Shown here: piece after piece, positions 34,101 through 38,400 of the stretch
Numbering within the stretch: the first letter of the stretch is position 1
Layout: each line of letters begins with the position of its first letter
DNA from: Cladorhizidae sp. MBARI D1340-BT2
Lineage: Eukaryota > Porifera > Demospongiae > Poecilosclerida > Cladorhizidae
Direction of reading: 5' to 3'
Assembly (NCBI GenBank): GCA_028752905.1
Contig: JAQNBH010000015.1
Coordinates: 34,268,163 to 34,332,162 of the forward strand
Length of the DNA stretch: 64,000 nucleotides
Translations under genes and position numbers: made by a program
The notes under the pieces: generated by a model
What the model saw: the letters and a program-made list of their open reading frames with translations, nothing else
Databases searched by the model: none
What the model was told of the DNA's origin: nothing

Positions 34101-35457
34101 AACATGTTAATCTTTAGGAACTGCAAGTTAGAATGTGAAGTGAAATCACCCTACCCTAACTCATTCATGTCATAACTTCAGCAACAAGTCTTGAATGGCT
34201 ATAACAACTGTGATTGAGAGGTTTACAAATACCGCAACTTACAGTCAGAGATAAGTTTTTTTAAGTGGACTTTATGTTCATGTGAAGAGGTCAAAAACTA
34301 AAAATAACCCTTGTGGTTACGACTTCGGAGCTCCATAGACTCTGCACACTTGACTGGATATATAGCTCAAATTATAGATCTCTCCATGTGCTCTCTTGAT
34401 ATAACTTAGCCAAAGTGGGAGTCCTGTGAGCCTGAGATGTTTTGTAATTATGGTTCCTGATTGGCCAGTTTAAATAGTATCTGTGGCTAGAAAAAGCCCT
34501 ACAAAACCAGCATATTCATTACGCGCTAAACCATGACTAATTAGTCAAGGGGGGGGGGGGGTGCTGGGAAAAATCAATGGTTTCTTCCAGCACCCCACGC
34601 TTGCCTAATTCGTTGAGTTTTAGTGCCTAAATCAACACGTACTGTAGTAGGGCTTCGTCTAGTCACAGATACAATTTCAACGGAGGGGGGGGGGGGCTAT
34701 ATAGCACTTTCCCACAAACTTAACCACACTTTACCAGCCTTGATCGCCTTGATCACCCCCCACCACCCCCTTTAATAATTTGGAGAAAAAAATGTTTATA
34801 CCAAGCATAGATTTTGTGTAATACATGTTTGAAATCTGGGAGAGACTCTATGCTCACCCTGTATATACCTCAGCAGTTTGGAGGCGTCAAAACAATATAT
34901 AATTTAAGTTTAAAATTATTGAAGCTTCTAAGTGAGGACACACCTTTCCTTTACATTCCTTTACATTCCCAATTTTAAAACTCCCGTTACACCTGCCATC
35001 TACGAGAGCTTTGGCTACCGCCCACAGGTCTGCACCTACTTACCTGGCTATCGTGCGTAAAAGAGTAGACCTGGCCTCGTTATGGAACGTGATGATGACG
35101 GAGGTGGCAGGCAGGGAGGAGCCATAGTACACACGAGAACACCTGCATCAACGCAAACAACCATATTACACACGAGAACACCTGCATCAAAACAAACAAC
35201 CATATTACACACGAGGACAACTGCATCAATGCAAACACCCATATTACACACGAGAACACCTGCATCAACGCAAACACCCATATTACACATGAGAACACCT
35301 GTATCAACGCAAACACCCATATTACACACGAGAACACCTGCATCAACGCAAACACCCATATTACACACGAGAACACCTGCATCAACGCAAACACCCATAT
35401 TACACACAAGAACACCTGTATCAACGCAAACACCCATATTACACACGAGAACACCTG

Positions 35458-35489
<32 letters not shown>

Positions 35490-38400
35490 GTAATAATAAT
35501 AATAGTAATAATAGTAATAGTAGTAATAGTAGTAATAGCAATAATAGTAGTAATAATAGTAATAATAATAACAACAACAACAACAATAGTGAGTATATAA
35601 CTGTACTGTTGGTGTTCCTGTGCTGGCATCCGCTACCTTATAGTTCCTCTGGTAGATTTCTCTATATTAATTTATTTCAAAAAAACAATTCCCTCTGTTT
35701 GTGTTCTTTGGGCACTTAACTTGCAGGTCAGGTGGAACCATTACCAGGTCAGGTGGAACCATTACCAGGTCAGGTGGAACCATTACCAGGTCAGGTAGAA
35801 CCATTACCAGGTCAGGTAGAACCATTACCAGGTCAGGTTGAACCATCACCAGGTCAGGTAAAACCATTACAAGGGCAGGTAGAACCATTACCAGGTCAGA
35901 TAAAACCATTACAAGGGCAGGTAGAACCATTACCAGGTCAGGTAAAACCATTACCAGGGCAGGTGGAACCATTACCAGGGCAGGTAGAACCATTACCAGG
36001 GCAGGTGGAACCATTACCAGGTCAGGTAGAACCATTACCAGGTCAGGTAAAACCATTACCAGGTCAGGTGGAACCATTACCAGGTCAGGTGGAACCATTA
36101 CCAGGTCAGGTGGAACCATTACCAGGTCAGGTAGAACCATTACCAGGTCAGGTTGAACCATTACCAGGTCAGGTAAAACCATTACAAGGGCAGGTAGAAC
36201 CATTACCAGGTCAGGTAGAACCATTACCAGGTCAGGTGGAACCATTACCAGGTCAGGTGGAACCATTACCAGGTCAGGTAAAACCATTACCAGGGCAGGT
36301 GGAACCATTACCAGGGCAGGTAGAACCATTACCAGGGCAGGTGGAACCATTACCAGGGCAGGTAGAACCATTACCAGGGCAGGTGGAACCATTACCAGGT
36401 CAGGTCAACCATTACCAGGTCAGGTAGAACCATTACCAGGTCAGGTCCATTACCAGGTCAGGTAGCATTACCAGGTCAGGTAGAACCATTACCAGGTCAG
36501 GTAGAACCATTACCAGGTCAGGTAGAACCATTACCAGGTCAGGTGGAACCATTACCAGGTCAGGTAGAACCATTACCAGGTCAGGTAGAACCATTACCAG
36601 GTCAGGTAGAACCATTACCAGGTCAGGTCCATTACCAGGTCAGGTAGCATTACCAGGTCAGGTAGAACCATTACCAGGTCAGGTAGAACCATTACCAGGT
36701 CAGGTAGAACCATTACCAGGTCAGGTAGAACCATTACCAGGTCAGGTGGAACCATTACCAGGTCAGGTAGAACCATTACCAGGTCAGGTAGAACCATTAC
36801 CAGGTCAGGTGGAACCATTGCCAGGTCAGGTAGAACCATTACCAGGTCAGGTAGAACCATTACCAGGTCACGTAGAACCATTACCAGGTCAGGTAGAACT
36901 ATTACCAGGTCAGGTAGAACCATTACCAGGTCACGTAGAACCATTACCAGGTCACGTAGAACTATTACCAGGTCAGGTAGAACCATTACCAGGTCACGTA
37001 GAACTACATTACCAGGTCACGTAGAAGCATTACCAGGTCACATAGAACTATTACCAGAGAGTTTCATGCGGCCAAAGTTTGGCTCCTCAATCTCACAAAT
37101 ACGTACGAGAGGTCCACTTTAGCAGCAGCTGAAGTCATTTTTGTTAGGCCATATGGTTACATATTTGAACTGCTGTGAGATACATACTTCATTTTACACA
37201 TCAGGGCTGCACAAAGCCACAAAACCGCACGGCCATTCATGCCCTCCTCATATGGACATGAATATGGTGAAGAATGTTAAGATATGCCAACCGTCAAATT
37301 TGGGAGCATGAACCCGAGTGTCTCTAATATGTGTAGGAACCATGGTTACTATTTACTTCCGTCCAATCTGCCTGCGATTACTACTGGAAGGCAATTAGAA
37401 GGGGGGGTTACTATTGATTGGTTGTGAAGGAGTTCAAGTGCCTGTTTGGAGAATGTTAATGATTTGCGTGCCTGAGGGCTCAACGGTATTCGGTGCTGGA
37501 AAGCAGAAGTCAAGGGTTCAAGCCCAGCTGGAACCAGAATTTTTCCTCCTCTGTTATCTTCAGTTCTCAGTTTACCAGCTAGTGAGCAATTACTTGGGCG
37601 TGTCTTATTGCTATTTGCCTCCGTGGTTACGATTGGAAGGGAGGTTACTATTACCAATTGAGACTGAGCTATGAGGTTACAACATTTTGGAGGGGCGGTT
37701 CCTATGGAGATAATACGGAAACTCTAGCATGTTCTACCTGTGGAGGTTACAATTGGAGGGGCGGTTCCTATGGAGAAAATACAGAACCTCTAGCATGTTC
37801 TACCTATATCTACAAGTTTAATGCCCAGAGACAGCTATTTAATAAATCATTTGGAAGCTATGGAGCTCCGGACATCCTCTCCTTTGTACATTGTCCGATT
37901 TTGATATTATACTGTCAGTTTTGAAAGAACATTAGCCTGCCATGTTCATTGTGGGTGAACAGTGCATTTGAGGGCTCACACGGTCAGTCTCTGTGGCACT
38001 GCGTGTATCAAGACCAGCTAGGGGGACTCACTGCCCTACATTTGTAGATAGTGAGGGCTCACACGGTCAGTCTCTGTGCCACTGCCAGTAGCAAGGCCAG
38101 CTAGGGGGACTCACTGCCCTACATTTGTGGATAGTGAGGCTCACACGGTCAGTCTCTGTGCCACTGCCTGTAGCAAGACCAGCTAGGGGGGCTCACTGCC
38201 CTACATTTGTGGATAGTGAGGGCTCACACGGTCAGTCTCTGTGCCACTGCCAGTAGCAAGCCCAGCTAGGGGGAACTCACTGCCCTACCCCAGCAGCTAA
38301 CTGTTAGGGCAAAGGTGCACTCACACATCTGCTAAATGTTCTTAAGGCCTGTCCACACTGCACACTGAATGCGCGTTAGATCTCAACGAATGCGCGTTCG

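Follow-up and report, generated by a model that had tools for sequence, protein, structure and literature searches.

The window analysed here, a 64-kb stretch of sponge DNA, carries on its minus strand ten exons of a GALNT2-like gene, which code for 384 residues and show GT-AG ends throughout except at the start of the first exon. By match, their translation belongs to the polypeptide N-acetylgalactosaminyltransferases, with the Pfam domain Glycos_transf_2 spanning residues 145-322 of the predicted protein and with human GALNT2 structures among the matches (2ffu, E 4e-128). Among the matches listed, the best over the whole query include those of Halichondria panicea, Geodia barretti and the record Em0019g1027a, and the highest-scoring one is an internally repeated fish sequence with 58% query coverage. 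The gene looks complete and functional, because five further GALNT2-like exons, coding for the lectin domain and closed by a TAG stop, were found to the left of the window (L004-L006), in 30 kb where tandem repeats make up 10.5% of the DNA versus 45% of the window. A survey of the 857-Mb assembly yielded 18 GALNT matches, ten of them the exons of this same gene and eight in two other GALNT genes, and the GALNT2-like gene is the sole close copy in that assembly.

The second intron of the gene extends over 14704 bp, and the exon that follows it, flanked by an acceptor cag/G and a donor CAG/gtaagt, begins inside a tandem array of 39-bp units. The main features of this region, in the order of the transcript, are the following:

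49847..50130, minus strand: exon 2, ending CA/gtgagt
35461..35571, minus strand: TTA-rich microsatellite, transcript-upstream of the farthest decoy, the putative original tail of the intron
35122..35463, minus strand: 39-bp array, with a unit of 18 intron bases including the AG end and 21 exon bases
35182-83, 35221-22, 35260-61, 35299-300, 35338-39, 35377-78, 35416-17 and 35455-56, minus strand: eight decoy AGs, each followed by an in-frame TAA and then a TGA
35143..35144, minus strand: true acceptor AG of intron 2, phase 2, fitting the CA/ end of exon 2 (Q-C junction)
35142-35044, minus strand: exon 3, 99 bp, first base 35142, encoding CSRVYYGSSLPATSVIITFHNEARSTLLRTIA
35042..35043, minus strand: exon 3 donor, CAG/gtaagt, the top one of ten donors on a donor consensus

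As advanced by the initial annotation, the exon 3 acceptor has been amplified into an array, called by TRF at 35122-35460 with a period of 39 and 8.7 copies. All eight further AGs claimed at exact 39-bp steps upstream of the true one are there, with exon-like starts from 35181 to 35454, which brings the acceptors to nine when the true one is included. Exon bases do form part of the unit, although they number 21 and not the 14 or so that had been estimated. Over these 21 bases (exon 3 starts G TGT TCT CGT GTG TAC TAT GG), the exon and the unit differ at one fixed place, which reads TAC in the exon and TAA in all eight copies. The AG is kept in 8/8 upstream copies and the G at +1 in 7/8, so that the preservation of the exon start in seven of them stands for this first base, but not for the peptide, as exact CSRV is found in only five (copy 2 reads CPRV, copy 4 CSHV and copy 7 CSCV). 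Copies 3, 5 and 6 are identical, copies 4 and 7 differ by two changes each, copies 1, 2 and 8 also differ, and the farthest copy, which borders the TTA-rich microsatellite already noticed beyond the last decoy, matches the unit over only ~9 intron bases. A chance origin of the array is excluded, because the exon 21-mer finds elsewhere in intron 2 no better match than one with 7 mismatches, the same as 20 shuffled 21-mers (7-9). A DNA search of the 857-Mb assembly, of a type that skips very common words, returned only this locus and a match on contig C108; the latter was rejected as a second copy or haplotype, being an unrelated 19-bp array, and no second haplotype was found in the one assembly searched. 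A tandem acceptor of the NAGNAG type was discarded as well, since the spacing between acceptors is 39 nt and not 3 nt.

Because 39 bp correspond to 13 codons, all decoys lie in the frame of the true site, and splicing to any of the eight would truncate the protein. The TAA previously made responsible for this outcome is indeed present in 8/8 copies, but it would not be needed, as a second in-frame stop, an intron-derived TGA, follows in every unit; a transcript spliced to decoy k would meet 2k stops before reaching the true exon. The decoy-derived stop would fall at residue 136, ahead of the Pfam glycosyltransferase domain, which begins at 145, in agreement with a truncation just before the catalytic domain. 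The TAC of the exon against the TAA of all copies suggests one founding change, which selection would have kept from the real exon.

Acceptor choice is a real question in this intron, as originally pointed out, since the scores of the sites alone do not favour the true acceptor over the decoys. With a crude matrix built from the remaining eight acceptors that the window contains for this gene, the true site reaches 6.54 and the decoys 6.04-8.35, with six of the eight scoring higher and the true site in 7th place of nine, whereas a vertebrate consensus, likewise crude, gives 6.88 to the true site and 3.47-9.45 to the decoys, with two of the eight above it and the true site 3rd of nine. The claim that the true site has no clear pyrimidine tract found no support in a comparison with these eight acceptors, as its 9/16 pyrimidines are inside their range of 8-13/16 and thus not unusually few. 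Strong unused AGs are in fact common, and of the 1118 further AGs of intron 2, 22 (vertebrate consensus) or 30 (own-gene matrix) equal or exceed the score of the true site. Both this abundance and the weight of arrays in the region, which take up 45% of the window and, within it, 53% of the GALNT2-like introns, would be expected if the array were a neutral by-product of a repeat-rich genome, with exon definition making the spliceosome ignore the decoys entirely. Such a silent array is nevertheless unlikely in our opinion, given that the decoys are the only credible competitors of the true site in its neighbourhood: within 900 nt upstream their scores are 3.47-9.45, and no other AG exceeds 0.47 (vertebrate consensus).

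On the donor side, the site of exon 3 is the highest of the ten donors (12.61; the others range from 3.92 to 9.45 on the donor consensus). The donor-like sites of the unit are weak on the same scale, with -0.56 and, once regenerated, -1.39, versus 6.94 for the exon 2 donor. A use of array units as mini-exons was rejected because of such weak donors, and so was a ratchet point for recursive splicing, for which the regenerated CCA/GTGTTC would have to serve.

A yUnAy motif occurs 5 nt before each of the nine AGs and, with the exception of decoy 8, all of them have another one 44 nt before, within the array, which comes from the copy upstream. Decoy 8 has in the usable range a single strict yUnAy, CTCAC at 135 nt. 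The original branch point probably lies now past decoy 8, within the TTA tract or ahead of it and at least 312 nt from the true AG, because no unit carries more than 18 intron bases, below the usual branch-point distance. Despite its long AG-free run, the claim of decoy 8 to this original branch point is not strong, because of that only strict motif in range. A distant-branch-point exon was also dismissed, as the long AG-free run is not at the used acceptor, where it measures 37 nt, and reaches 144 nt only at decoy 8. Exon 3 would then probably depend on a branch point within the array itself. UUGAU is the best candidate, lying 44 nt before every acceptor and only 5 nt before the preceding AG. 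AGs closer than 12-15 nt to the branch point are reported to be bypassed in some cases (PMC1431707), and for this reason the AG served by a branch point would be that of the following copy. The strong donor and the body of exon 3 are predicted to favour the last copy, aiding exon definition, and some transcripts are predicted to leak to the decoys and to be removed afterwards by nonsense-mediated decay. Leakage is plausible because transcript order, according to a designed-library study, was not decisive between two tandem 3' splice sites (PMC6783452).

Minisatellite-like duplications of intron-exon boundaries are described in amphioxus under the name of mirages (PMC3087553, PMC3902484). The reading we prefer, with a probability of roughly two in three, is that the edge of exon 3 has become a nine-copy, mirage-type 39-bp minisatellite, likely by tandem duplication, where splicing would proceed mainly to the true last copy and the decoys would be dead ends. 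A stronger role can be conceived for these nine similarly scoring acceptors, all but one of which would be dead ends, if a decoy were frequently picked by the original branch point located beyond the array and the nonsense product were destroyed, so that copy number would set the productive share and act on expression as a rheostat. The indifference to transcript order mentioned above for two 3' splice sites would also suit it, but the amphioxus mirages are reported to leave regular splicing undisturbed (PMC3087553, PMC3902484), and there is no sign of selection to keep the decoys, as changes among them amount to 10 in 294 sites (4/168 exon-like and 6/126 intron-like), a level at which the chance that all eight AGs stay intact is 0.57. 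We therefore hold this role to be quite improbable, and the same doubt applies to its variant in which exon 3, cut off from the original branch point, would run on in-copy branch points, with copy number setting the share of transcripts escaping the decoys as a mutable rheostat.

Regarding the origin of the array, the exon part of the unit encodes a Cys followed at a distance of five residues by a Tyr. These two residues were found in 14/14 aligned relatives having the region (15 of the 120 matches listed were aligned, and P0001 lacks the region), and also in the two other GALNT genes of the genome, while human GALNT2 carries a Trp instead of the Tyr at the second conserved place. In the GALNT paralogue of contig C13 (L044) one intron shares the position and phase of intron 2 (/G TGT), with a TTG-rich tract directly before the AG and no array, and in the GALNT gene of C14 the exon extends further upstream than the exon 3 edge. 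The conserved residues show the exon 3 edge to be old GALNT coding sequence and the array to have grown from it. The opposite course, an intron minisatellite already present that overwrote the start of exon 3, could invoke that 13 bases of the CSRV stretch recur in exon 10 of the same gene and that these letters are thus not unique, but the edge has the conserved Cys and Tyr at the right spacing and phase, the intron position is common to a paralogue free of arrays, and this course is highly improbable. In any tandem duplication, the original upstream flank would stay by the first copy and the original exon body by the last. At the farthest copy some filler insertion or later change must be assumed, because its match to the unit stops after 9 intron bases.

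As a separate observation, the 13-mer common to exon 10 (8097-8109, minus strand, within PCSRVGHVFR) and to the exon 3 edge (35130-35142, minus strand) is GTGTTCTCGTGTG; none was expected in 100 shuffles, and it may reflect either a coincidence of codons or conversion.

Considering all the exons of the window, only two of the 19 splice boundaries lie in arrays, the exon 3 acceptor and the exon 6 donor (binomial P for two or fewer = 0.00016, with boundaries treated as independent). In view of the 53% intron cover, arrays seem to be kept away from exon edges, and the two cases seem to be survivors. A scan of 40 bases around the 19 boundaries likewise detected off-site copies only for these two, the second of which is the following:

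24657..24821, minus strand: two-copy duplication of the exon 6 donor, where ACAG/GTACCCACAGTGAG... recurs 85 bp downstream, beside a GT-rich tract

In this donor copy, 24 of the 40 boundary bases match at 96%, and splicing at it would add 85 nt and shift the frame. Two of the 18 GALNT loci have arrays, both in the GALNT2-like gene, with 0/8 in the two other GALNT genes. Thirty chaperonin-family loci of this genome, with 19 different match sequences between them, were inspected as well; no mirage was recognised in any, and the matched stretch was free of arrays in 27. Of the others, two loci identical in their match (L017 and L024) overlap a 500-bp two-copy repeat, and a third (L036) has an 18-bp array that by our reading ends 24 nt short of the acceptor. 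Chaperonin-family matches were also seen along contig C14 at ~39.39-39.66 Mb, several at identical family coordinates, as in a tandem cluster of genes or pseudogenes.

Other elements were noticed in the window. Intron 2 has a 41-bp array (41113-41771, minus strand) whose units contain TACTAAC and CTTTAG, a repeated pair of branch-point-like and acceptor-like motifs, and intron 9 has a reverse transcriptase open frame (9383-9892, plus strand; RVT_1, E 3e-14). A weak endonuclease-reverse transcriptase match, below the Pfam cut-off (E 6.5e-4), was found at 60615-61052 (minus strand), and a series of open frames at 53858-55816 (plus strand) is transposase-like in appearance, three of them giving no Pfam match when tested.

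Mirages have been reported in amphioxus for Adh3, the globins BflGb6 and BflGb9, troponin C and PGBD5 (PMC3087553, PMC3902484). By its sequence, the exon 3 array is a mirage minisatellite, a known kind, and every feature tested is present in it: the unit spans the exon-intron boundary with 18 intron and 21 exon bases, the splice-signal AG is retained in 8/8 copies, the real exon of an intact gene runs on from one end of the array, and the inner copies are homogenised (3, 5 and 6 are identical) to the exclusion of the edge copies. The same layout is described for BflGb6, where the intron end and the 5' part of exon 2 are repeated, with 6 and 3 units in two haplotypes (PMC3087553). As in that gene, the array spans an acceptor, with the 3' end of the intron and the 5' part of the exon, and its edge copies have diverged while the inner ones are alike (PMC3087553), whereas the duplicated exon 6 donor resembles BflGb9, reported to have its 3' exon boundary repeated. 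The host, in contrast, is a sponge and not a cephalochordate, the unit has 39 bp versus the 10-72 bp given for Adh3, 150-160 for BflGb6, and 60 and 108 for PGBD5, and every copy preserves the reading frame and contains two in-frame stops. In amphioxus, RT-PCR suggests that regular splicing is undisturbed for BflGb6 and Adh3 (PMC3087553, PMC3902484), whereas the sponge array was characterised in genomic sequence. No mirage outside amphioxus was found in a literature search of CC-licensed papers, and within that literature this is apparently the first one. Splice-boundary minisatellites would thus extend from amphioxus to sponge, with two in one gene (nine copies of an acceptor and two of a donor), and the sponge case would add to them its host, a short frame-locked unit and a probable displacement of the original branch point beyond the farthest decoy.

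Two other systems are related to this one. Intron gain from internal tandem duplications carrying AG/GT has reportedly been proposed by Rogers in 1989, Zhuo in 2007, and Gao and Lynch in 2009. Such gain, as treated in a further source (PMC2812944), shares with the exon 3 array the multiplication of splice signals by tandem repeats within a gene, but here no new intron or exon is apparent, the repeat occupies an old boundary, and donor-like sites in the unit are weak. With nine similar acceptors in natural competition and all eight wrong choices marked by stops, the array bears on the way in which cells choose between copies of a splice site and on whether array length alters the output of a gene. 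Engineered duplications of 3' splice sites, with identical serial acceptors competing for one donor, were reportedly studied by Lang and Spritz in 1983 and Reed and Maniatis in 1986. The exon 3 array would likewise confront serial acceptors with a single donor, with the difference that it is natural, has nine copies and lies inside a 14.7-kb intron.
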